Shown here: piece after piece, positions 5,823 to 64,000 of the stretch
How the letters are laid out: each line of letters begins with the position of its first letter
Position numbering within the stretch: position 1 is the stretch's first letter
Notes under the pieces: model-generated
What the model was told of the DNA's origin: nothing
Seen by the model: only the letters and a program-made list of their open reading frames with translations
Databases searched by the model: none
Source of the DNA: a virus
IMG/VR virus record: IMGVR_UViG_3300040809_000464
Location: 1 to 64,000 of that record
Direction: 5' to 3' (one strand)
Length of the DNA: 64,000 nucleotides
Position numbers and translations under genes: made by a program

Positions 5823-5851
5823 ATTAAACCATAAAATGTGTTGTTTGTCAA
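5823..5851 (-). promoter_or_regulatory. Sigma70 promoter for the 5527-5787 gene
   Basis: On the minus strand, TTGACA (complement of 5846-5851) and TTTAAT (complement of 5823-5828) are separated by exactly 17 bp. It lies about 35 bp before the ATG of the Ser-rich protein and probably drives the leftward genes down to about 3 kb. Confidence 0.75.
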
Positions 5852-5872
5852 GGGTTAATTTAGATTAAGACC

Positions 5873-6280
5873 TCAAAGTAAATAGCCTACCAGAAGACCA
5901 GCAAGAAAAGTTATAGGTAAACTTTTATAGACTATCTTTATCAGGTCTTTCTTATGAAGCTCAATATTAACCTTTAGTCTGCTTTCTAATCTCTCTACAG
6001 TACCTTTACTTATTATATCTACATTATCACTTACTTTGTTATATAACTCATCAAATATATCAAACCTTTTTCCATATCGCCAAGGTTGATAACTAAGGTC
6101 TAAATTTTCTATAATGTCGTCTAAAGGTCTATCTTTTAACCACATAAGATTAACTATATCATCTCTTCTCTTGTCCCTTTCTTTGGTCAACTCTTCTATC
6201 TCTTCTTTCAAATCTAATTTCTTATTAACACTTAGATTATAAGAATTCTTATGCATAATACTTTCTACACGGTTACTCAT
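5873..6280 (-). CDS. Hypothetical protein with C-terminal membrane anchor
   Basis: Start chosen at the ATG at 6280, which has GAGGAG upstream and overlaps the HNH gene stop by 8 bp. The body is charged and helical; the last ~20 residues (ITFLAGLLVGYLL) form a tail-anchor membrane segment. It is the last gene before the 5.8 kb promoter gap. Confidence 0.6.
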   Translation of the reverse strand: MSNRVESIMHKNSYNLSVNKKLDLKEEIEELTKERDKRRDDIVNLMWLKDRPLDDIIENLDLSYQPWRYGKRFDIFDELYNKVSDNVDIISKGTVERLESRLKVNIELHKKDLIKIVYKSLPITFLAGLLVGYLL

Positions 6281-9984: not shown

Positions 9985-10431
9985 TTATAGTTCCCAAATC
10001 TCGATATCAAACTCTTTCAAGATAACCTCGCACAACTCACTCACAACGTCCCAATCACCACCAGCCAACTCTGAAGCCATCTTATAAGGAATGATCACTG
10101 TGAAGGGGTCTGCTCCTAGTGCTTTCTGTATAAGATTCAGGTAGCCTTTAACTTTAAAGAGACACCATGATAGATGTCCGTAGTGTACTTGTCTTTTATC
10201 TGTCCCTACATGTTCCTGAGCTGTTAAGTTCATCACCATATCGTTCTCATCATAAGATACGTCACCTAAGTTATGATCCTCTAAGTAAGCTCTATAGGTT
10301 TTGGGATAGGTGAGTTTAATCTGCCTAGCAATACCTGCCCCCATCACACCTTGAGCGTTACAACAATGTAGCAATACTGTATTATCCTTATGTTGGTGTC
10401 TCTTAATAGCACAACCTTTATAGTGTTTCAA
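9985..10431 (-). CDS. Macro domain protein (ADP-ribose binding/processing)
   Basis: The 148 aa product contains the macro-domain signature near residues 22-45 (HCCNAQGVMGAGIARQI), the loop that binds ADP-ribose, and a central GHLSW segment. Members hydrolyse ADP-ribose-1''-phosphate or remove ADP-ribose from macromolecules. The start is a TTG at 10431 with AGAGGAG seven bases upstream. It is the first gene of the leftward operon, directly behind a sigma70 promoter. A role against host ADP-ribosylation or NAD-derived signals is an inference. Confidence 0.8.
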   Translation of the reverse strand: MKHYKGCAIKRHQHKDNTVLLHCCNAQGVMGAGIARQIKLTYPKTYRAYLEDHNLGDVSYDENDMVMNLTAQEHVGTDKRQVHYGHLSWCLFKVKGYLNLIQKALGADPFTVIIPYKMASELAGGDWDVVSELCEVILKEFDIEIWEL

Positions 10432-10771: not shown

Positions 10772-11506
10772 ATGTTTGATAAAGATAATAAATGGTTAAT
10801 GCAAGGTGATTGCCTTGAAATGATGAAGCAGATCCCTGATAGCAGTGTCGATATGATATTGACAGACCCTCCTTATGGTACTACAAAATGTAAATGGGAC
10901 TCCATTATACCTCTTGAATCTATGTGGGGACAGTTGAAAAGGGTATCAAAAGATAACAGTGCCATATTACTTTTTGCACAAACCCCTTTTGATAAGGTAC
11001 TAGGTTCAAGTAATTTACCTATGTTACGTTATGAATGGATCTGGGAGAAGACTGCCGCAACAGGTCATTTGAATGCCAAAAAGATGCCTATGAAAGCACA
11101 TGAAAATATATTAGTTTTCTATAAAAACCTCCCTAAATATAATCCAATTAAGACAAACGGTCACATTAGAAAGACCACTAAACAAGTCAGACATGAAAGC
11201 TCTCTTTACGGTAATCAAGATAGTTATACTTCTTATGATAGTACCTCCAGATACCCTAGGAGCGTACAAGAGTTCTCTAGTGATAAACAGAAAGAAAACT
11301 ACCATCCAACACAAAAACCTACAGCTTTGATCGAATACCTAATTAACACCTACACTAATAAAGGTGAAACGGTTTTAGATTTCACAATGGGTAGTGGTAC
11401 AACGGGTGTAGCTTGTAAAAACCTTGATCGTAAATTCATAGGTATAGAGTTAGATGAGAATTATTTCAATATTGCCAAGAACCGTATCGAAGGAGAAACC
11501 TTATGA
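10772..11506 (+). CDS. DNA N6-adenine/N4-cytosine methyltransferase, beta class
   Basis: The 244 aa protein shows catalytic motif IV TDPPYG at residues 31-36 and the AdoMet-binding motif I near 199-215 (DFTMGSGTTGVACKNL, then GIELDENYF). Motif IV before motif I is the beta-class order. DPPY enzymes methylate N6-adenine or N4-cytosine. No cognate restriction endonuclease is present, so it probably protects phage DNA from host restriction or regulates it. Its stop overlaps the start of the nuclease gene by 4 bp. Confidence 0.85.
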   Translation: MFDKDNKWLMQGDCLEMMKQIPDSSVDMILTDPPYGTTKCKWDSIIPLESMWGQLKRVSKDNSAILLFAQTPFDKVLGSSNLPMLRYEWIWEKTAATGHLNAKKMPMKAHENILVFYKNLPKYNPIKTNGHIRKTTKQVRHESSLYGNQDSYTSYDSTSRYPRSVQEFSSDKQKENYHPTQKPTALIEYLINTYTNKGETVLDFTMGSGTTGVACKNLDRKFIGIELDENYFNIAKNRIEGETL

Positions 11507-12213: not shown

Positions 12214-12891
12214 ATGAAGATTAGATTAACAGATAGTGAGACGGCAGGTTTCGATGGTGGTATTGTTGAGATTGGTTCTATAGAGATTGATAAGGATGGT
12301 AAGATACTATCCACGTATGAGACTCTAGTGAACCCTGAGAGGGAGATTGAGATTGGGGCTATGGTAGTACATAACATCACTAACGAAATGGTTGTAGAGG
12401 CTCCTACGTTTGCACAGGTGAAGCATAACATTACAGATGCAGACGTTAGTATTGCCCATAACAGCTCTTTCGATGCAAGAGTGCTTGAGATGAAGGATTA
12501 TAAGTGGTGGTGTACTTTAGGGGCTTCTCGTTTAGTGTATCCTGAGTTGAAGTGTCATAAGAACATGAGTTTGTTTTATGAACTAGGTCTGCATAAGGAA
12601 TTCTCTTTTGATGGCACTCCTCATAGAGCTTTATTTGATTGCCATGTAACGTTAGAGCTTGTACGTGATATGATGAGGAAGATGGATATGGACTTGCTTG
12701 AGTTGATGTCTTATGTAGAGGATATGGCTGGAGAGAAGATCTGTCAGTATAAGAAGTATAAGGGACTGCCTTGGAAGATTGTTCTTGAGACGGATGAAGG
12801 ATATTGTCGATGGTGTGTGGAGAATAGTCTGAAGAAGGGTCCTGAGCAGGCTGTTAGAGAGTGGTTGGTTAAGAGGTTGGGTCAGGAGTGA
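12214..12891 (+). CDS. DnaQ-fold 3'-5' exonuclease, ExoX-like
   Basis: The 225 aa protein has the DEDDh residues: D7 and E9 in LTDSETAG, AHNSSFDARV near 81, and HRALFDCHVT near 137. The C-terminal ~60 residues (GEKICQYKKYKGLPW onward) match the short extension of E. coli ExoX-type enzymes. It is likely a distributive single-strand DNA 3' exonuclease acting in repair or end trimming. GAGG precedes the ATG. Confidence 0.8.
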   Translation: MKIRLTDSETAGFDGGIVEIGSIEIDKDGKILSTYETLVNPEREIEIGAMVVHNITNEMVVEAPTFAQVKHNITDADVSIAHNSSFDARVLEMKDYKWWCTLGASRLVYPELKCHKNMSLFYELGLHKEFSFDGTPHRALFDCHVTLELVRDMMRKMDMDLLELMSYVEDMAGEKICQYKKYKGLPWKIVLETDEGYCRWCVENSLKKGPEQAVREWLVKRLGQE

Positions 12892-12925: not shown

Positions 12926-12954
12926 TTGACAAATTAAAGATTCCATGTTATAAT
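12926..12954 (+). promoter_or_regulatory. Consensus sigma70 promoter for a 58 aa gene
   Basis: TTGACA (12926-12931), 17 bp spacer, TATAAT (12949-12954): a perfect consensus on both boxes. It precedes a small gene with AAGGAG. Confidence 0.85.
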
Positions 12955-12980: not shown

Positions 12981-13157
12981 ATGTTTGCAAGATCAGAAGA
13001 TGTTACAAAAGCATTATTAGCTGGAGAAACAACAGTAAGAAAGATACGTAACAGGATCTCATATCACAGGGTTAGAGGTAACGTACCTGCTGTAATGATG
13101 TTCTTAGAGGGTATTGAATGGTACTTGTACGAGAAAGAATATAAACCTGAAGAGTAA
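12981..13157 (+). CDS. Small basic protein, 58 aa
   Basis: The ATG at 12981 stands behind AAGGAG, and 27 bp after a perfect promoter. The protein (starts MFARSEDVTKALLAGETTVR, ends EYKPEE) is basic in the middle (RKIRNRISYHRVRG) and looks like a compact folded domain, possibly nucleic-acid binding. A hairpin with short T tail follows at 13208, so it may be a monocistronic, strongly expressed regulator. No family recognised. Confidence 0.65.
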   Translation: MFARSEDVTKALLAGETTVRKIRNRISYHRVRGNVPAVMMFLEGIEWYLYEKEYKPEE

Positions 13158-13207
13158 ACAGTTTAGGTAGTTCGAGGGGGGTATCTATTTTTACAACTAA
13201 GCTACAG

Positions 13208-13228
13208 CCCTTATTTTATAAGGGTTTG
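13208..13228 (+). terminator. Terminator-like hairpin
   Basis: CCCTTAT (13208-13214), TTT loop, ATAAGGG (13218-13224), then TTTG. A perfect 7 bp stem 50 bp after the 58 aa gene. Confidence 0.55.
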
Positions 13229-13264
13229 TGCCAATTGGTAGTGTAGGAATGTTTCCAGAATATA

Positions 13265-13384: not shown

Positions 13385-14749
13385 ATGATTTATGAATTAA
13401 GTAAATTAAATATATTTAGTATAGAGGACCTTAAACTAAAGAGTCTTAGGTATTCTCTCTATTATAACAAGAGTAAGCATTATGAAGTAGTGGTTAAATT
13501 ATTAATTAAGGAATATGGTAAGAAGTATGAACCTGATATAAGATGCTTAGTTACTAACATAGCTAAAGCATTTAAATCAAGAACAAAGTATCTTACTGTA
13601 ACACTACATGCTGCACATTATTCTAATAATATACTAGATATATCTTACCGTAAGACACGTAAACTAATATCTTTAATGGAACAAGATGGTTACATAGATA
13701 TTTATAAGGGTTTCTCTAAAGGTAAGAAGGTTAATCAAGAGTTTGAAGTATCTTTAAGTAGTGCTACAATAATTAAATTTAATAAACCTCTTGAAAATAT
13801 ATGGGAAGACAGGTATCATAAGTATGTAAATCTAATAGATTTCGATCTTATAGAAGTTAGAGACAGAGAAACTAAGAAAAGTAAAAGCACAAGAGGCTTT
13901 AAAGGTCTGTCTGATAAGAAAGCTTTTATGAAGAAGTATAATATGTTACTAGAGAATGTAGAGTTTAGTGTTATGGGTGAAATAGTTCCATCACCACTTT
14001 ACAAAAGAGTATATACAGATAATCCATCTAAAGGTGGTAGGTTCTATAACTGTGGGAATTTCCAAACTATGAAGAAAGAATTAAGACCAAGTATTAAGAT
14101 TGATGGTGAAGATACCGTATGCTTAGATTATTCCGCATTACATCCTTGTCTATGTTACAACCTTGTAGATGTCGAACTAGAAGATTGGTTCTCACCTTAT
14201 GATTGTGATACCAGTTTTATTAAGGTGGATGAAGAAAAGGTTGAAGAATTTAGGAAGAAATATAATAAGCCTAACTACGACCCTGTGAGAAACCTTGTAA
14301 AGATTGCCATGTTATGTGTGCTTAACAGTCCTGAAGGCAATGGTGAGAATAATGCTTCTGTAGCTATATTGGCAATATCTAGTAAGATCGGTCTCGACAG
14401 AGCTAAACAGAATGATGAAGAAACTGTTGGTGATTCTATGTTCTATGGTTTATGCTTTGGTAGGAAACCTATACCAGTTAAAGAACTTGTAAAGAGTATC
14501 TTGACACATAATTTCCCTATTGCAGAGTTCTTCTTTACAGATATTGGATTAGAGTTGCAACGACATGATAGTGATATGGCTGAGTACATCTTAGGGCATT
14601 TCTTACAGAAGAATGAGGTATGCCTCAGTTGGCACGATGGATTTGTTGTCAAGAAAGACTTGAAAGACGAACTCAACAGTGTTATGCTAGATGCTTACAA
14701 AGAAGTGACTGGTACAGAAAAGAATTGTAAGATTAAACAAGAGTATTAG
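13385..14749 (+). CDS. Compact family-A-like polymerase (TV-Pol-like), with winged helix
   Basis: The 454 aa protein has palm motifs of superfamily A polymerases: motif A LDYSALHP with D248; a KIAML/FYG region with K306, like the finger helix; and motif C SWHDGF with H417-D418. The N-terminal part contains a winged-helix-like segment (ISYRKTRKLISLMEQDGYI, near 90). There is no exonuclease domain and it is half the length of the replicative polymerase. This matches my recollection of the transposon-virus polymerase (TV-Pol) family proposed to combine priming and polymerisation. Palm assignment is fairly firm; the family and activity are inference. AGAGG precedes the ATG. Confidence 0.65.
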   Translation: MIYELSKLNIFSIEDLKLKSLRYSLYYNKSKHYEVVVKLLIKEYGKKYEPDIRCLVTNIAKAFKSRTKYLTVTLHAAHYSNNILDISYRKTRKLISLMEQDGYIDIYKGFSKGKKVNQEFEVSLSSATIIKFNKPLENIWEDRYHKYVNLIDFDLIEVRDRETKKSKSTRGFKGLSDKKAFMKKYNMLLENVEFSVMGEIVPSPLYKRVYTDNPSKGGRFYNCGNFQTMKKELRPSIKIDGEDTVCLDYSALHPCLCYNLVDVELEDWFSPYDCDTSFIKVDEEKVEEFRKKYNKPNYDPVRNLVKIAMLCVLNSPEGNGENNASVAILAISSKIGLDRAKQNDEETVGDSMFYGLCFGRKPIPVKELVKSILTHNFPIAEFFFTDIGLELQRHDSDMAEYILGHFLQKNEVCLSWHDGFVVKKDLKDELNSVMLDAYKEVTGTEKNCKIKQEY

Positions 14750-20264: not shown

Positions 20265-21175
20265 AGTATTTATATATAATTCATAATAGTGTTAATGATA
20301 AGAAGTATGTTGGTGTTTCAATAAGACCTGATGAAAGGTTTAAACAACATAAAAGAAGAGAAGGTTGCCCAGCTCTACGTAGTGCAATGAAGAAATATGG
20401 CACTGACAAATTCAGTATGGAACTACTTTGTGTAGGTGATGCAGAAACAATAGACCAGTTAGAGATTGAAGCTATACAGTTGTTCAATTCAGTAACACCT
20501 AATGGGTATAATGTATCGTTAGGCGGTGAAGGTGCTAAGTACATACAATGGTCAGATGAACAAGATAATCTTTTATATACGCTTAATAACATTACTGTAG
20601 CTAAACTTTTAAATATAGACCAGAATACAGTAGCTAGACGGAGGAGATTCTTAGGTATACCAAATATACCTCAAGATTTTAGTTGTAAGGAATTTAATAT
20701 AACTAAAGATGTTGAAGAAATATTCAGAGACACATCTATAACTATTAACACTGCGGCTAGAAAAGTCGGATGTGATAAAGCAACTGTATCAAAGTTTAGA
20801 AAGAAACATAACATAGGTCTTGATATAGGTGTACGTAAGGTAAATGGTGATCTAGTAAAGTTTGAACTTACAGAGGATATCATAGAGGAATATAAAGAGG
20901 GTAAACCTTATAAGTTTTTCAAAGAAAAGTATGGTATATCAAGAAGCTTGTTTAACAGACATAGATCAGGTCTTAAACTAACAGTTAGTAATGCGATTGT
21001 TTGGACAGAGGATATGTTAGAAGTGTTATTAAATAAAGAGTACACTGTAAGTAAGAAAGCAAGATTACTAGGATTGAATTACCGTACAGTAGAGAAAAAG
21101 TTGAGGAAGATACATGACAAAAAAGAAACAAATAGTATTGAGTCCTCAGAAAGGACCTCAAGAAGAATTCCTTAA
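20261..21175 (+). CDS. GIY-YIG homing endonuclease with NUMOD/HTH repeats
   Basis: Begins at a TTG (20261) behind GAGAGG. Residues 3-17 read YLYIIHNSVNDKKYVGVS, the GIY/YIG pair; R23 in SIRPDERF, a conserved Glu in LEIEAIQLF and NVSLGGEG complete the catalytic module (first ~95 residues). The rest holds several HTH-like units (TINTAARKVGCDKATVSKFR, SKKARLLGLNYRTVEKKLR) for target recognition. It overlaps the terL start by 62 bp and contains its ribosome site, as expected for a mobile endonuclease beside its target. Confidence 0.85.
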   Translation: MKYLYIIHNSVNDKKYVGVSIRPDERFKQHKRREGCPALRSAMKKYGTDKFSMELLCVGDAETIDQLEIEAIQLFNSVTPNGYNVSLGGEGAKYIQWSDEQDNLLYTLNNITVAKLLNIDQNTVARRRRFLGIPNIPQDFSCKEFNITKDVEEIFRDTSITINTAARKVGCDKATVSKFRKKHNIGLDIGVRKVNGDLVKFELTEDIIEEYKEGKPYKFFKEKYGISRSLFNRHRSGLKLTVSNAIVWTEDMLEVLLNKEYTVSKKARLLGLNYRTVEKKLRKIHDKKETNSIESSERTSRRIP

Positions 21176-23648
21176 AAGAAAAGATGAGGTGTTCCTTGTT
21201 CTCTTTGGTGGAGGTGCAGGTGGCGGTAAAGCACTAAGGGATGACCAACTAGTTTTAACTCCTACAGGTTGGGTGCAGATATCAGATTTAAAGTTTGGTG
21301 ATGAAGTTATGACACCAGACAATGAAGTAACTAATGTTACAGGAGTTTATCCGCAAGGTAAAGTAGATCTATATGAAGTCACTTTATTAGACGGCAGGAA
21401 GTCGATCTGCTGTGGTGATCACTTATGGGAGTGTTGGGATGCACGTAGAGCAAAGAGAACAGTAAGAAAGACTTCAGAGCTTATAGAACGTATTAAGCAT
21501 ATAAATGTATTATTACCAACTGTAGAGGAGATAGATTACTTATCAGAGTACCAAACAGAATTACCTTTAGATGCTTACGTGTTGGGCGCTTTATTAGGTG
21601 ATGGAGGTATGAGTAGCGACAGTGTTAGTTTTACAACTGCTGATGAGTTCTTTATTAAAGAGTTCATTAAGTTAGGTGTAGATATTGTTAAGTGGAATAG
21701 TGGTAAATACGCTTACGGTATTAGAGGTTTAAATCCTACACTAAGATCGCTGAATCTTATGTTTAAGACTTCTCATACTAAATTCATACCAGATATCTAT
21801 AAGAAAGCTTCTATACAAGACCGTAAGAATCTTATACAAGGTTTGATGGATACAGATGGTTATGTCTCTAAGGAAGGTAAACTTTACTATTATACTGTTA
21901 GTGAACAACTTGCAAAGGACTTCCAAGAGGTTGTCAGAAGTCTAGGGGGTTCAGCAACTATAACAGATAAGTATACTAAGTATAACGGTAAGCGTGTTAA
22001 GTCTTATAGTGTTTATATCAAATACAATGAGGGTAAAGAGCTTGTAAGATTACCTAGAAAGAGAAACCTTGCAAGGACTAAGAATACACATAACGGTGTT
22101 CGTATCAAGAGTATTGATAAAGTTGAATCTGGTGAGGCAACTTGCATTAGTGTGGCTTGTCCTAAGAAATTATTTATTACGAATGACTTCATAGTTACTC
22201 ATAATACGTATGGTATACTTTTAGACAACCTTCTATATATCAATGATCCAAATTATTTCTCTGTGTTCTTTAGACGTACACTTGTTGAGTTGAAGACGAA
22301 TCTGTTCCCCGAGATGTTGAGGTTAGCAGAACCATTCTTATTCTATCAGAGCGGTCCAAACAAAGGTAAGCCTAAAGGTAAGGCACATATAAGCCTTCAA
22401 GATTACACAATAACATGGCCATCTGGTGCTAAGACAACTTGTGCATATTTAGATCTAGAAAAAGATTCTGACAAATGGTATGGTGCTGAAATATCAAGAG
22501 CTTACTTTGATGAATTCCAGTTTACAAGAGAATATTGTTTCGATGTAATACGTTCTCGTATGCGTTCTAAAGCAAAGATAAAATCTTGTATCAGGTGTAC
22601 ATTGAACCCAGACGATTCACACTTCTGTTATAACTACGTTAGAATATTCTTAGATGAGGAAGGATTCCCAATCCCAGAGTATAGCGGTAGAGAAGCATTC
22701 TTCTTAATACATGACGGTGTGACGTACACAGCTTGGACTAGAGAGGAATTACTTGAGAAGTTCCCTGAGAAAAAAGGCGGTATAAAGAACTACACTTACA
22801 TACCTTCTACCCTAGAAGATAACGCTATCCTTATGAATTTAGAAGCTGATTATAAAGCCACACTAGATTCATTACCAGAAGCAAAGCGTAAGCAGCTCTT
22901 ATTAGGTTGCTGGCACGCTAGTCAGTCTGAAGGGGAGTATTTCCGTAAAGATTGGGTTAAGATGGTAAATGGTTCTGCTGAGAATGCTACTAGGTGTAGA
23001 GCTTGGGATTTAGCTGGTGTAGAACATGATCCTAATAGTACAGGGTATGCTAAGAATCCAGACTGGACTGCTGGTGTACTTATGAGTAAGAGACCTACTC
23101 CGAGCGGTGTACCTATCTATAGGGTTGAAGATGTAATTAGGGATCGTAAATCTATTGGTGATATCGTTAGCTTGATAGTACAGACTTCTGTAGAAGATGC
23201 AGAACTATACGGTGATAAGTATTCAGTATTCATCCCTTCAGATCCAAACCCTTCAGCAACAGCCTTCGCTAAAGATATTGTTAGCAAGTTAGTTGAGAAA
23301 GGTATCAAGGCGTACACTTCAAGTAGTAGGGATAGCAAGATAGACAGATACTTACCATTCTCTTGTGCTTGTCAGAACGATCAAGTTGAGGTTACAATAG
23401 CTCCTTGGAACAAAGAATATTTCCTTGAGTCTGAAAAGTTAACCTCTGACAGGTTGAAACAGAAGAAGCAAAAGGATGATCAGGTGGATGCTACTAGTGA
23501 TGCGTTTATAAGATTAAACAGTACTCGTGTTGTACCAGTCCCCACCTTACCAGCATCTTCTCAATCGACAGCAACCCGTTTAGATGAGCTTCGAAGGGAC
23601 ACTGGCAGAGGATTACCTAACGTGAATGACCTTAAGAAGAACCGTTAG
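21114..23648 (+). CDS. Terminase large subunit interrupted by a class 3 intein
   Basis: The 844 codon gene encodes a ~519 aa terminase after removal of a 325 aa intein (residues 40-364). The extein Walker A is GGGAGGGK|TYG, Walker B AYFDEF near residue 466. The RNase H-like nuclease shows RAWDLAG near 632, SDPNPSA near 710 and DDQVDATSDAF near 788. The enzyme drives ATP-dependent DNA translocation into the prohead and cuts concatemers. Translation starts at 21114 behind GAGG within the GIY-YIG gene. The intein must splice for ATPase activity because it separates the Walker Lys from the Thr. Confidence 0.9.
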   Translation: MTKKKQIVLSPQKGPQEEFLKRKDEVFLVLFGGGAGGGKALRDDQLVLTPTGWVQISDLKFGDEVMTPDNEVTNVTGVYPQGKVDLYEVTLLDGRKSICCGDHLWECWDARRAKRTVRKTSELIERIKHINVLLPTVEEIDYLSEYQTELPLDAYVLGALLGDGGMSSDSVSFTTADEFFIKEFIKLGVDIVKWNSGKYAYGIRGLNPTLRSLNLMFKTSHTKFIPDIYKKASIQDRKNLIQGLMDTDGYVSKEGKLYYYTVSEQLAKDFQEVVRSLGGSATITDKYTKYNGKRVKSYSVYIKYNEGKELVRLPRKRNLARTKNTHNGVRIKSIDKVESGEATCISVACPKKLFITNDFIVTHNTYGILLDNLLYINDPNYFSVFFRRTLVELKTNLFPEMLRLAEPFLFYQSGPNKGKPKGKAHISLQDYTITWPSGAKTTCAYLDLEKDSDKWYGAEISRAYFDEFQFTREYCFDVIRSRMRSKAKIKSCIRCTLNPDDSHFCYNYVRIFLDEEGFPIPEYSGREAFFLIHDGVTYTAWTREELLEKFPEKKGGIKNYTYIPSTLEDNAILMNLEADYKATLDSLPEAKRKQLLLGCWHASQSEGEYFRKDWVKMVNGSAENATRCRAWDLAGVEHDPNSTGYAKNPDWTAGVLMSKRPTPSGVPIYRVEDVIRDRKSIGDIVSLIVQTSVEDAELYGDKYSVFIPSDPNPSATAFAKDIVSKLVEKGIKAYTSSSRDSKIDRYLPFSCACQNDQVEVTIAPWNKEYFLESEKLTSDRLKQKKQKDDQVDATSDAFIRLNSTRVVPVPTLPASSQSTATRLDELRRDTGRGLPNVNDLKKNR
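21231..22205 (+). other. Class 3 intein with LAGLIDADG homing endonuclease
   Basis: In-frame insertion of 325 residues beginning with Ala and ending FIVTHN, followed by extein Thr. Splicing blocks: DHLW gives W66 (block B:12), TCISV gives C305 (block F:4) and VTHN gives T323 (block G:5), the WCT triad of class 3 inteins, which start splicing from the block F Cys instead of residue 1. Block B Thr is replaced by Cys (CCGDH). The central domain carries two LAGLIDADG motifs, YVLGALLGDGG and LIQGLMDTDGYV, so it is probably a full, active element. It sits precisely in the terminase P-loop. Confidence 0.85.
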
Positions 23649-58752: not shown

Positions 58753-59022
58753 TTAATTTACTATGTGGTTACGTAACTTAATAGGGTTGGTCTCTACAAA
58801 GTAACTTCCCCAGACTCCTAACAAGTACCCTGCTGCAACTACACAAAGGAAGAGAATCATATTGGTAGCTAGTATCTCTACATACGCCATCTCTTCATAT
58901 TCAAACTCATACATACCCTTAGCTATAACGATAAACACTAAAGAATACACCATCCAGCTCAAACTCTGTAGGAAGTAACCAAACACTCTCTTACCTGTAG
59001 AGGAGGATTTCCTGTTAGTCAT
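58753..59022 (-). CDS. Small membrane protein with two TM segments, 89 aa
   Basis: TM1 near residues 14-36 and TM2 near 50-73. Basic N-terminus (RKSSSTGKR). It overlaps the RdgC-like gene by 8 bp at its start and lies before SSB. Function unknown; it may tether replication to the membrane. Confidence 0.6.
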   Translation of the reverse strand: MTNRKSSSTGKRVFGYFLQSLSWMVYSLVFIVIAKGMYEFEYEEMAYVEILATNMILFLCVVAAGYLLGVWGSYFVETNPIKLRNHIVN

Positions 59023-59893
59023 CCTTAAGCTTATCCTCTAAGTCTTTAACCATCAAGGATAACTCTGTAATAGTGTAGATCAGAGTCTTGCACAATGTAT
59101 CATCCTCATCTTCTCCTTCCATATTGCTATCAAAGGACAACCCTTTAAAGACGAACTCCTTAGTGATTTCCCCTGTAATGAAACCATCATAAGCGAACTT
59201 ACCTTGAGTGAACATCTTACCAGCTTCAATCATAGCATGGCATTCTTTACCTTCTACACTATTCTTATCAAGCATCCCTTTAGATTTATCCTCACCTACC
59301 AAGATAATCTTATCACCCCACTCCATCGGTTCGACAAGGCTATTATCAATCAACATACTTGTCATAGTATCGCTAAGGTTATCCACTTGTACCTGCTCAA
59401 TATCTTCCCCTTCTACAACGTCCATACCAATAAGTATATTCTTCATAGTATCAACCTCTTTAGATGAAGCTGAGAAGACGTATAAGCGGTTATCTTTAGG
59501 GTTGAGACATGATAGTACACTCTTGTTAGAATAGTTCGCATCGGGTAATAGAGAAGCTTCTACAGCGTCCATAATATCTTCTTTGGTTTCCTTATCAATA
59601 CTATCTACAGAAGAATACTCACCAGAGTCTACTAAGCTAAGGAACCGTTCATGAGCTACATCTTTAACCTTATCCTTAGAGACTGAACGCTTATGGAAGT
59701 TGACAGAGAACCATAGCTTACCTTCTAGTTGTGTTAAGTATTCGTCCCAAGTATCCTTAATAGGAACCAATCCAATAGATTCCTTATGAGAAGGGATACA
59801 TCTAAAGGCGAATCGTTGCTGTGTATCCTCGTTAAGTAAGTTCTCTAAACGGGTATCTGTTAATTGTAATACTGTTAGGTTTTTTAAATTCAT
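59015..59893 (-). CDS. RdgC-like recombination-associated protein, 292 aa
   Basis: The N-terminal NLTVLQLTDTRLENLL, then FRCIPSHKESIGLVP and LYVFSASSKEVDTM, with a C-terminal acidic helix, resemble bacterial RdgC (E. coli RdgC about 303 aa), a ring-shaped double-strand DNA-binding protein that inhibits RecA. The conserved glycines are less clear, so this is a family-level call. A phage copy could limit host recombination or protect ends. Promoter at 59922-59950. Confidence 0.65.
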   Translation of the reverse strand: MNLKNLTVLQLTDTRLENLLNEDTQQRFAFRCIPSHKESIGLVPIKDTWDEYLTQLEGKLWFSVNFHKRSVSKDKVKDVAHERFLSLVDSGEYSSVDSIDKETKEDIMDAVEASLLPDANYSNKSVLSCLNPKDNRLYVFSASSKEVDTMKNILIGMDVVEGEDIEQVQVDNLSDTMTSMLIDNSLVEPMEWGDKIILVGEDKSKGMLDKNSVEGKECHAMIEAGKMFTQGKFAYDGFITGEITKEFVFKGLSFDSNMEGEDEDDTLCKTLIYTITELSLMVKDLEDKLKDD

Positions 59894-60553: not shown

Positions 60554-63247
60554 CTAATGGCATTCTGCCCAATCTCTACCTATTATATAACCTGCTGTTA
60601 ACTCTATATTTAACTTGTAATAGTCTCCAGTTCTTTGAACTGCTTCTGCTGCTAATTGCCCAGCTTTACTGTAAGCCACAAACACACACTTGTCATTAGC
60701 TACAATATCACTCCAGATCTTACTGTTACTTTTAAACTCCGTATCTTTAAACTGTTGTGCTTCCTGTTTAAGTTTCTTAGTATGTAGTTTCTTGTCATCT
60801 TTATCCATATCTTTAAAACCTTCTGGATAATTAAATATCTTGAAAGTGACTTGATCCTTATTTACTTCTAGTTGTGCCTCATCGTGCATCGCTATCATTT
60901 GCTGGCAAAAGTCTTTTTTCTTCCAATCATCTTTAAAGAAATCAACTATTAGGTTATTCTCTCTGAGTAGCTCTTCATGTATTACCATCGCACGTTTAGC
61001 AGCTATAACACCAGCAGACTGAAAAGCAGTGTTTATTACATTACCTTTAGATCTCACAGGTAACTTCCTACCGTCTAACCCTAATAGGAACTTCTTCTGA
61101 CCTTTTGTTTCCCAGTATCTCTGCATATTCTTCTTAAGCTGGTTAAGGGGGAACGCTTGATCCCAGAAAGTATCGAATATTACCTGAGCAGTTGGTAAAT
61201 CACAACCTACGGTCCTTGCCACACGAGGAGGTTGAGCATTATAACTACAGCCATATTTAACACTCTTAGCAGATCCTCTAGGGAAATCAGTACCTAGTAG
61301 GTCAGATATCTTTTCAGCTAATTTAGTATGACAATCATTAGGCTTTTCTAAAGTAAGTGAATTACAATACTCTTTAGTAGGGTCATAGCGCCAACAATAA
61401 TGCGACTCTATCTTAGCTTCTAAACTATCAAAGTCATAACCTATCTGATAATACCCTTCACCAGCACCAAATAGTGACCTCATATTACTACCATACAGAG
61501 AAGTTACCCTAGGTATGTTAGCTACAACCCTGTGTTTCATCCTAGAAGTAGCTGCATCACAAGTACCTGCTGGTGTAGCTATTCTACCATCTTCTCTGAT
61601 ATAAGCCATGTAACCTTTTTCAGCTTCCCCTTCTTCGTCCCATTCAAGACCACCACCTAAGATACTATTACGTCTATGCTTGTAAGTCATATACTCTACG
61701 ATATTTCTAGCGTAGGGGAACTTATCAGATAACTTATCAAGATTAGGACATATCTCTTTTTCTTGACCCTTAGTAAAGTTTGGATTTGTAGGTACTTTAC
61801 ACATACCACCGTCTTTAGTACGTAAAAGCTTAGCCTTCAACCTTGTACGTGTTGTCTCTAGGAGGTCTAACCTTTCTTTACAAAGTGGTGAATTCAATGT
61901 TTCTTCTACATACTTATCTACAGCTTCTTCAAACTCTTGTCTAGTTCTTTTAATCTTAGCTGTTTTAGTTTTTCTTTCATACAGATCCTTCTCTTTGAAT
62001 TCACTAGGGACCCAACCAAACTCCTCAACAAGCCATCCTTTTATATGGGTAGAGTCATTGATAGTTGCAACCATACTGGTCTTTACAGGTTCTAAGTCCA
62101 TTGGTAGTGCATATGTTTTACCATATAAAGTTACTTCTGTATTGGCTTCATTAACACTACCTTCATGTCTATCTAAAAAGTTAACCATATGATTAGATAG
62201 TGTACGTTCTTCTTTTATTACAGTACCTTGTTTAATAGGTAAAGTATATGTCTTACCATATAAGGTACATTTACGGTCATCCAATAACTTCCCATTGTTC
62301 TTGTCAATGAACTTTAACATGATAGCACTTACATCACCACTCTTTTTAAACTGGGTCTTAGGTGGCTCTACTGTAACTACCTTTACCTGATTTACTGGTG
62401 GAGTATGATCAGATAAGAATTTCTTTGTAGCTTTTCTAGGAGGAAGAACTGGCTCTACTGTAACTCTATGCTCTTCCATCATCTTATCTAACTCTTCAAC
62501 AGAATCTTCTGCCAGTTTCCTATTAAAAGCAAAACCTCTATGTTCTTGTCTGGTAACAATATCCGCTACTTTCTTTTCAAGTCTGATCGGGTCATCCCAT
62601 TCCCAGTTACCTTTCTCCTTCTCTAAGTATTTATACACCTTAGTATTTACAAGAACATCCCTGATACAGTAGTACAACATATCTGCTGCAAACTCTTCAA
62701 ACTTCTTTTGTTTGTCCTTGATATAGGGTCTGAAATCTATCTTACGTAAACCCACCTTCTCTGACAAGTTATCAAGACTATGCCCACCAAACCTATCAGG
62801 ATTTAACGTCTTAGACAGTACCATTGTATCAACTATCTCGGTAGGTTTACCACACCAAGAGTCAGGCTCTACTTGATAATCCATACCGTAGTAAAGTTTA
62901 CAAACAAGATGATCATAGTTAATCCCATTGTGAGCCACCACCTTATTTATTTTATTACTTTCAATATAAGATTTAAACTCGTTCAACTGTTTATGTACAT
63001 ACTTGACAGGCTTATAATTCTCCAAGACGTAATCTACATCAATAGATCGACCTTTCTCAGAGTATTTCCTCCCATCAAGTTCATAAGTATCACCATTATA
63101 GAAAGCAATGATCTCTCCAGTCTGGTGGTTCTCTGTAACAATACAATGCATCTTAAAAGAGTTTTTCAACTTGTACGGTGAACTTAGGTAATCAATCGTA
63201 TTATGGTTAAGTAAGTTATTAGCCTCTATATCGAAAGTAATATCCAA
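60554..63247 (-). CDS. DNA polymerase I family (T7 gp5-like), 897 aa
   Basis: TTG start at 63247 behind AGGAG. 3'-5' exonuclease: Exo I D6/E8 (FDIEAN), Exo II near 106 (AHNGINYD), Exo III Y193-D197. Polymerase motif A near 604 (YDFDSLEAKIE), motif B (SAKSVKYGCSYN), motif C H787-D-E. It replicates the genome with the downstream gp4-like helicase and SSB. A lysine-rich insertion near residues 255-420 contains a tandem repeat around two TLYGKTY motifs. Confidence 0.9.
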   Translation of the reverse strand: MDITFDIEANNLLNHNTIDYLSSPYKLKNSFKMHCIVTENHQTGEIIAFYNGDTYELDGRKYSEKGRSIDVDYVLENYKPVKYVHKQLNEFKSYIESNKINKVVAHNGINYDHLVCKLYYGMDYQVEPDSWCGKPTEIVDTMVLSKTLNPDRFGGHSLDNLSEKVGLRKIDFRPYIKDKQKKFEEFAADMLYYCIRDVLVNTKVYKYLEKEKGNWEWDDPIRLEKKVADIVTRQEHRGFAFNRKLAEDSVEELDKMMEEHRVTVEPVLPPRKATKKFLSDHTPPVNQVKVVTVEPPKTQFKKSGDVSAIMLKFIDKNNGKLLDDRKCTLYGKTYTLPIKQGTVIKEERTLSNHMVNFLDRHEGSVNEANTEVTLYGKTYALPMDLEPVKTSMVATINDSTHIKGWLVEEFGWVPSEFKEKDLYERKTKTAKIKRTRQEFEEAVDKYVEETLNSPLCKERLDLLETTRTRLKAKLLRTKDGGMCKVPTNPNFTKGQEKEICPNLDKLSDKFPYARNIVEYMTYKHRRNSILGGGLEWDEEGEAEKGYMAYIREDGRIATPAGTCDAATSRMKHRVVANIPRVTSLYGSNMRSLFGAGEGYYQIGYDFDSLEAKIESHYCWRYDPTKEYCNSLTLEKPNDCHTKLAEKISDLLGTDFPRGSAKSVKYGCSYNAQPPRVARTVGCDLPTAQVIFDTFWDQAFPLNQLKKNMQRYWETKGQKKFLLGLDGRKLPVRSKGNVINTAFQSAGVIAAKRAMVIHEELLRENNLIVDFFKDDWKKKDFCQQMIAMHDEAQLEVNKDQVTFKIFNYPEGFKDMDKDDKKLHTKKLKQEAQQFKDTEFKSNSKIWSDIVANDKCVFVAYSKAGQLAAEAVQRTGDYYKLNIELTAGYIIGRDWAECH

Positions 63248-63259
63248 AATAAACTCCTA

Positions 63260-64000
63260 TTAAAAATCTTCTATAGTTTCTTCTACAGGTTTACCATTAG
63301 GATACATACTATACCATTCTTGTAGTGTTTGGCAAGAGTCATCTTCAAGGAAACCTTCTGGTGGTTCTACATAATCCCCAGTGTCTACATCATAGAACAT
63401 AGGTATCTTACCAGTGCGTCCATGTTTACGATCATCTAGTAGTACCATATGACTAGTGTTAATCTCTTTCTCAGACAATTCTGGATCTTTATTACGTTCA
63501 ATACCGATTAAATAATACGCGGCTCTCATCATTGCTCTACTGCCTGTAAACTGACTAGATACTACCTTACCACCAAACTCATGAGATGGTCCTTGAGATG
63601 GTGCTTTAAGGTGGCAGAAGCAGTAATAAGTGAAACCTAGATCTTTACTCATCTTACTAATTTCATCTGCAAAGCGCTCTAATTCAGTTGAAGCTTCAGA
63701 GGCAGACATACCAGAAGTTAGCCTCGTAATAGGATCAATAATGATATCTTCAATATGTTCTACCAACACAGCATGACGTATAGCTCCTTTAAGCTCATCC
63801 CAATGACATCGACCATAGTTATTATACATAACCAGTCGTGGACCAATGGTATCAACAGCGTAGTCTAATTCTTCTTGAGTGAAGTATGTATCACGGTACT
63901 TAATATCTTCACCCCAGATATCATGCTCTCTTCCTGCTTCATCTATGAAGAGAATCTTCTCAGGGTTAGAAAAGTCTTTCTTGAAGAACTTACCAGCCAC
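63260..64000 (-). CDS. DnaB/T7 gp4-like replicative helicase (C-terminal part, start outside)
   Basis: 246 visible codons; no start lies inside the window (a GTG at the edge is internal). Walker B-like IIIDPITRLTSG, the TGSRAMMRAAYYLIGIERNKD segment typical of gp4/DnaB hexamers and a MVLLDDRKHGRTGKIPMFYDVDTG strand set (arginine-finger loop). It unwinds DNA for the polymerase. It is 12 bp upstream of the polymerase in the same operon. Confidence 0.8.
   Translation of the reverse strand: MAGKFFKKDFSNPEKILFIDEAGREHDIWGEDIKYRDTYFTQEELDYAVDTIGPRLVMYNNYGRCHWDELKGAIRHAVLVEHIEDIIIDPITRLTSGMSASEASTELERFADEISKMSKDLGFTYYCFCHLKAPSQGPSHEFGGKVVSSQFTGSRAMMRAAYYLIGIERNKDPELSEKEINTSHMVLLDDRKHGRTGKIPMFYDVDTGDYVEPPEGFLEDDSCQTLQEWYSMYPNGKPVEETIEDF

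Follow-up and report, generated by a model that had tools for sequence, protein, structure and literature searches.

A 454-residue protein encoded in the window (here, the whole 64,000-nucleotide stretch of DNA analysed, bases 1-64000 of the 88,675 bases of virus record IMGVR_UViG_3300040809_000464) is, by direct homology, a member of divPolA2, a previously named and uncharacterised family. In our view this protein very probably works as a family A polymerase without being the replicase of the phage, and we tentatively propose, at somewhat less than even chances, that it is an accessory enzyme of a primase-polymerase-like kind whose putative target is an imperfect dyad upstream of its gene, at which or through which it would act. 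The site travels with divPolA2 and marks a helicase-like gene too, which offers a first handle on the function of these extra polymerases, which hundreds of sequenced phages carry, the Vibrio cholerae phage ICP1 included.

Family membership and replication context

The protein matches PHROG 4756, a family of unassigned function, over nearly its whole length (E 6.3e-92), and barbavirus divPolA2 records match it directly (E about 1e-9, 85% coverage). Relatives were found by tblastn in 284 phage records, among them ICP1, with hosts that are mostly Vibrio, Rheinheimera (barbavirus), Aeromonas, Pseudoalteromonas and Shewanella; nearly all are annotated as hypothetical. The preliminary description of this DNA had the reading frame right and held that its product lacks an exonuclease, and no Pfam domain, that of a 3'-5' exonuclease included, was found in the 454 residues. 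It had overlooked a second divPolA2 copy beyond the window (record 70338-71702), which is 22% identical to the window copy and also matches PHROG 4756 (E 2e-67). Searches of PDB (phmmer and two profiles) and PADLOC with the divPolA2 protein gave nothing significant. For the winged-helix-like N-terminus put forward in the preliminary description, the winged-helix matches obtained are all sub-threshold and come from single members among the 28 searched (F-93_WHD, E 0.017; TBPIP, E 0.083).

In a literature text search the name divPolA2 appears only in Yutin et al. (2024, Virol J 21:200, PMC11348598) and its preprint. According to the divPolA2 section of that paper, the family occurs in barbaviruses and related phages, some of which carry two or three paralogs; its proteins keep the palm intact, lack an exonuclease, have an N-terminal domain that resembles no known thumb and show structural similarity to mitochondrial RNA polymerase (RNAP). 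Function is left undecided there between a repair DNA polymerase and an RNA polymerase. The window protein resembles its barbavirus relatives in homology, in its palm motifs, in lacking an exonuclease, in occurring beside a regular polymerase and in having several paralogs per phage, but the regular polymerase is PolB in the barbavirus phages and PolA in the 88.7-kb phage of the window. The dyad, its link to phrog_2467 and the gate substitutions reported below are new with respect to that same divPolA2 section.

The separate T7-like polymerase that the preliminary description had recognised in this phage is indeed present (Table 1), and the best PDB match of this main PolA is T7 DNA polymerase (E 1e-18). 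In the related phages searched, the DNA_pol_A model matches another gene or nothing, never divPolA2. With a PolA and a primase-helicase already encoded by the phage, divPolA2 is an addition and not the main replicase. An RdgC-like recombination protein (59015-59893, minus strand; PF04381, E 8e-18) adjoins these replication genes.

The sigma-70 promoter match ahead of the gene (Table 1) is likely the promoter of the divPolA2 unit, and the short reading frame that follows it is possibly co-transcribed with divPolA2. Transcription would probably be by the host RNA polymerase, and we infer from the promoter match that its timing is early. The gene next to divPolA2 encodes 63 residues, and the stand-alone exonuclease of the window was not seen as a conserved neighbour of divPolA2.

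Table 1. Coordinates of the divPolA2 gene, its key codons, the upstream elements and related features (window numbering unless stated otherwise).
Feature	Position	Strand	Remarks
divPolA2 gene, PHROG 4756	13385..14749	+	454 aa, ATG start
Arg of GGR hairpin, R219 codon (Pol I R668-like)	14039..14041	+	Arg 48/49, Lys 1/49
Motif A catalytic Asp, D248 codon	14126..14128	+	Asp 49/49
Position of the Pol I E710 sugar gate, H253 codon	14141..14143	+	His 45, Glu 3, Trp 1 of 49
Fingers (O-helix) motif R302-x3-K306	14288..14302	+	R and K in 49/49
Position of Pol I Y766 / T7 RNAP Y639, N314 codon	14324..14326	+	Asn 46, Tyr 3 of 49
Motif C, H417-D418	14633..14638	+	His 47/49, Asp 49/49
Stand-alone RNase_T/DnaQ-like exonuclease	12214..12891	+	225 aa; PF00929 E 1.6e-15; PHROG 192
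Sigma-70 promoter match, TTGACA-17-TATAAT with TG extension (extended -10)	12926..12954	+	a perfect consensus match, no more
Reading frame between promoter match and dyad	12981..13157	+	58 codons
Imperfect dyad GCTACAGCCCTTAT-TTT-ATAAGGGTTTGTGC	13201..13231	.	154 bp before start codon; model match 13194-13238
Main PolA	60554..63247	-	897 aa; DNA_pol_A and 3'-5' exonuclease domain
T7 gp4-like primase-helicase, in-window part	63260..64000	-	record 63260-65029, 589 aa; PHROG 239 E 8e-132
phrog_2467 sites	loci L148-L152, L154		genomes G012, G009, G004, G014, G018

Catalytic residues and the sugar gate

Residue conservation was read from an alignment of 49 proteins comprising first and second copies, public phages and three bacterial relatives. 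The motifs pointed out in the preliminary description, LDYSALHP (residues 247-254), a fingers lysine and HDGF (residues 417-420), are all borne out by this alignment, in which D248, R302, K306 and D418 are identical throughout and R234 is kept in 48 of the 49 proteins. Since the catalytic Asp pair and the fingers Arg and Lys are invariant across these relatives, the palm is likely active, and it is from these residues that we infer catalytic activity. The sugar-gate position lies five residues after the motif A Asp, and a second site, normally Asn in the family, eight after the fingers Lys; we take these to be the equivalents of E710 and Y766 of Pol I, the latter corresponding to Y639 of T7 RNAP. 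The gate is altered at both, with His for Glu and Asn for Tyr, and divPolA2 would therefore probably accept ribonucleotides or mixed substrates, that is, relax its sugar selection. Contrary to this reading, three members have Glu at the gate and three have Tyr at the Asn site.

The palm motifs are those of T7 DNA polymerase and T7 RNA polymerase alike, but divPolA2 differs from these enzymes in lacking an exonuclease and a recognisable promoter-recognition part, and its gate residue is neither the Glu of the former nor the Gly of the latter. The signature of T7-type RNAPs, Gly at the gate and Tyr at the Y639 position, is absent, His253 and Asn314 standing there instead. The PF00940 model does not match divPolA2, and the control genomes likewise gave no PF00940 match.

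Relationship to the TV-Pol enzymes

It had been suggested at the outset that this is a compact family A enzyme of the TV-Pol kind. At the level of motifs the suggestion holds: divPolA2 has in common with the TV-Pols (Iyer et al. 2008) the minimal family A core of an Arg hairpin, an R-x3-K fingers motif and two palm Asp residues, and it shares two further residues with the likely TV-Pol of Microcystis phage LMM01. Against a TV-Pol set (LMM01, Calothrix, Polaromonas) the divPolA2 profile gives a weak hhalign match (E 0.0019, probability 14%) whose 55 columns run from the Arg hairpin to the end of motif A, pairwise similarity being undetectable; against PolA the E-value is 0.03, at motif A, and against T7-type RNAPs 0.023, at motif C, with column-shuffled controls at 0.3-0.8. 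Single-comparison E-values of this kind are weak, and because even the PolA and RNAP profiles fail to match each other at the same depths (0.53), we regard the TV-Pol match as supportive and not as proof. Sequence profiles thus appear to put divPolA2 nearest the TV-Pols, if weakly.

The comparison with LMM01 depends on the identity of its TV-Pol, which the relevant text of Iyer et al. (2008) mentions for this phage without a gene name. MAP_030 is likely the protein meant, as it lies beside transposases and carries the TV-Pol motifs. It has His at the gate (D+5) and Asn at K+8, as divPolA2 does, and this common alteration predicts relaxed sugar selection in a group of which few enzymes have been assayed. 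The TV-Pol trait list also includes a thumb of two antiparallel helices.

Genomic context sets divPolA2 apart. TV-Pols are linked to a D5 helicase, a resolvase or a transposase, whereas no D5 helicase, resolvase, integrase or transposase was recognised among the divPolA2 neighbours examined; we accordingly call the protein TV-Pol-like and not a member of TV-Pol, the linked helicase or recombinase not having been found. For the roles put forward in the preliminary description (priming, lesion bypass or a plasmid-like replication stage) no support was found, and the D5 helicase/recombinase context on which the primase-polymerase prediction for TV-Pols was founded was not found beside the gene. 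The CcPol-MP and PolA-SSB primases of SCCmec (Bebel 2020; Rice 2023) are likewise family A polymerases of mobile DNA without a working full exonuclease; they are grouped with the TV-Pols and have been shown to prime. CcPol itself retains Glu and Phe as gate residues (PMC7581432), the E710 and F762 of Pol I, where the window protein has His253 and Leu310. Primases of the CcPol type also have an OB-fold partner encoded by the adjacent gene; the gene adjacent to divPolA2 in the window is the one of 63 residues.

A dyad associated with divPolA2 genes

The leaders of divPolA2 genes contain a dyad that reads CTACARRCC-N10-12-GGYYTGTAG. With up to five mismatches the half-site occurs in 15 of 26 leaders and ahead of 9 of 453 other ORFs, a count that is partly circular since the half-site was picked from the same data. 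The stricter test was a model of the dyad, built on 21 leaders in versions with and without pairs and then searched against 143 kb of held-out loci. Its matches at E<0.01 came from six loci and each lay 37-600 bp ahead of a divPolA2 gene, the sources being second paralogs of the 88-kb phages, an Aeromonas-like phage, the second copy of Pseudoalteromonas phage J2-1 and Vibrio phage S4-7. Within the window's record only 13194-13238 and 70154-70198 match, both of them divPolA2 leaders, the next match having an E-value of 0.1. Over 28 whole records (E 0.01) the model marks 37 places, of which 29 lie beside divPolA2 genes and two fall inside unrelated ORFs; the dyad is found upstream of 29 of the 43 divPolA2 genes in these phages, with 21 of the 29 in the training set. 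At the same threshold it is absent at Barba, ICP1, most Vibrio copies and the bacterial relatives, so the dyad is not needed for every divPolA2; for the leaders that do not match, the explanation is either divergence of the site or its restriction to some members of the family.

As to its nature, the dyad scores on both strands, the window copy better on the minus strand, and pair covariation for an RNA hairpin is unsupported, which is a weak negative with the alignment partly out of register. These two observations make a putative DNA site, bound by a symmetric protein, likelier than an RNA hairpin. Folding of the window leader is no better than that of shuffles (z -0.24), and Rfam found nothing in the upstream region. 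With only two copies in the record, the dyad was rejected as a genome-wide RNAP promoter. A 12-base box, GAAAGYACCGAG, was considered as a linked element and discarded, since it is missing from the window copy and one match, in Aeromonas, proved to be a tRNA. In one subgroup this box occurs once per genome, with no mismatch, beside the dyad (loci L015-L017, L019-L021, L023, L034, L038 and L039, at about 5844-5884, plus strand), and at the second copy of the window's phage it lies at record 70206-70217 (minus strand), in the opposite orientation.

The six strongest dyad places away from divPolA2 in the 28 whole records all lie within 130 bp of a phrog_2467 gene (Table 1), and six of the nine phrog_2467 genes in those records have the site, 47-59 bp before the gene in three and 26-128 bp after the stop codon in three. 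These proteins, of 412-435 residues and unassigned function, carry GSGKT, DEEL and a C-terminal Q-x3-R motif and, judged by such motifs in the face of no Pfam match, look like SF2 helicase-type ATPases. The phage of the window has no phrog_2467; the link to divPolA2 is through the dyad alone, in other phages. Because the dyad is shared by both genes, on either side, a site of action or a shared regulator fits better than simple self-repression, and the candidate of a simple operator of divPolA2 alone is weakened.

Selection and evolution of gene and leader

In 35 genome pairs, which share genomes and are not independent, divPolA2 proteins are on average 83% identical, against 43% for TerL in the same phages, while identity is 54% at fourfold synonymous sites, 64% in the leader (-150 to -20, gaps counted against) and 33% in the flank (-600 to -350). 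Members that are 83% identical and differ at nearly half of their fourfold sites indicate purifying selection, and the contrasts of 83 and 64 with 54 and 33% indicate that protein and leader are both held by selection. A degenerate gene is rejected, the protein being under constraint. Recent horizontal transfer, considered as the source of 97% protein identity, is weakened by the strong divergence of fourfold sites in several such pairs. Related copies become alike at a point within roughly 150-300 bases ahead of the gene and cease to be so at its stop codon, the flanks being unrelated, so that gene and leader behave as a single unit. In the second-copy pairs L088/L089 and L090/L091, the catalytic part is highly alike and the first ~100 residues and the leader have clearly diverged, looking as if N-terminus and leader change together.

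Proposed function and alternatives

We suggest that host sigma-70 transcription would provide divPolA2 early in infection as a proofreading-less family A polymerase, close to the TV-Pols and accessory in role. Its altered sugar gate would allow it to use ribonucleotides or mixed substrates and to start or extend short strands in the manner of a primase-polymerase, and it would act at, or be targeted through, the dyad beside its own gene, which in sister phages also stands beside a helicase-like ATPase. Counting against priming is the T7 gp4-like primase, which already covers that function. A bolder form of this proposal, which we think improbable, would have divPolA2, joined in some phages by phrog_2467, begin RNA or DNA strands de novo at the dyad, which would then be a site dedicated to initiation; if true, this would be a two-gene priming or secondary replication system of tailed phages, independent of the T7-like replisome.

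Among the alternatives, a DNA polymerase for gap filling or lesion bypass that binds the dyad, in the form of DNA or of an mRNA hairpin, and so shuts down its own synthesis is unlikely. The dyad lies between the sigma-70 promoter and the start codon in many copies, the leader is better conserved than synonymous sites, and there is a precedent in T4 gp43, whose self-repression works through a hairpin some 40 bases ahead of the gp43 start codon (PMC3014915). Both are phage polymerase genes with an inverted repeat ahead, but gp43 is a family B enzyme with a short mRNA hairpin for an operator, whereas the divPolA2 dyad flanks another gene family as well, in three cases past the phrog_2467 stop codon. 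An RNA version would have to accommodate unsupported covariation and an element that scores in either orientation.

We find it rather unlikely that divPolA2 is a plain accessory repair polymerase and the dyad an unrelated element, serving another phage regulator or inter-phage recombination. A block of homology that reaches from the dyad region to the stop codon, between unrelated flanks, would suit such a view, as would the finding that divPolA2 identity does not track TerL identity and that ICP1 isolates have two different alleles at one place; a separate reason would then be needed for the same dyad at paralogs that are 22% identical and at phrog_2467. The two ICP1 alleles, very different from each other, both lie between gp97 and gp103 (L005, 5977-7281; L009, 5203-6870), and one of them (ORF100) is two genes ahead of a Mom-like DNA modification gene.

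A single-subunit RNA polymerase transcribing a few phage operons, the other possibility named by Yutin et al. (2024), is in our judgment doubtful. This reading draws on the HDS/HDG form of motif C and the loss of the gate Glu, on the profile contact with T7-type RNAPs and on the structural similarity to mitochondrial RNAP given in the divPolA2 section of that paper (PMC11348598). Yet the gate is His and not Gly, the T7 Y639 position is Asn, two dyads in a record do not make a genome-wide promoter set, and the divPolA2 genes studied here have sigma-70 promoter matches of their own. ICP1 is not predicted to encode an RNA polymerase (PMC9040626), a statement that would need revision if divPolA2 were one.

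A defence or counter-defence enzyme in phage-host or phage-phage conflict, which the type III restriction-modification genes adjoining the Rhodobacteraceae relatives and the several, variable copies per phage might bring to mind, is very improbable, given no PADLOC match, a single bacterial lineage and phage copies outside known counter-defence clusters.

Bacterial relatives and neighbouring genes

A Thioclava plasmid gene matches divPolA2 query P0001 (E 3e-13); this copy is short and adjoins an IS21 element. Longer bacterial relatives occur in T. atlantica, in Ruegeria and in another Rhodobacteraceae genome, and the two genes that come next to the T. atlantica copy form a type III restriction-modification pair (PADLOC E 2e-170 and 5e-149), a neighbourhood seen in one bacterial lineage, the Rhodobacteraceae (L131, 7593-13594; L128, 5779-11366; L132, 1590-4671).

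In the window, a DNA N6/N4 methyltransferase gene lies near divPolA2 (10772-11506, plus strand; PF01555, E 1e-35), and a macro-domain-like gene is found within a few kb of divPolA2 both there (9985-10431, minus strand) and in barbavirus locus L006 (8232-8723). The reading frame of the terminase large subunit (844 residues; 21114-23648, plus strand) appears to be interrupted in its Walker A region by an intein that bears a homing-endonuclease-like insert (GGGKALRDDQLVLTPTGWVQISDLKFGDEVMTP ... IVTHNTYG, read by eye).
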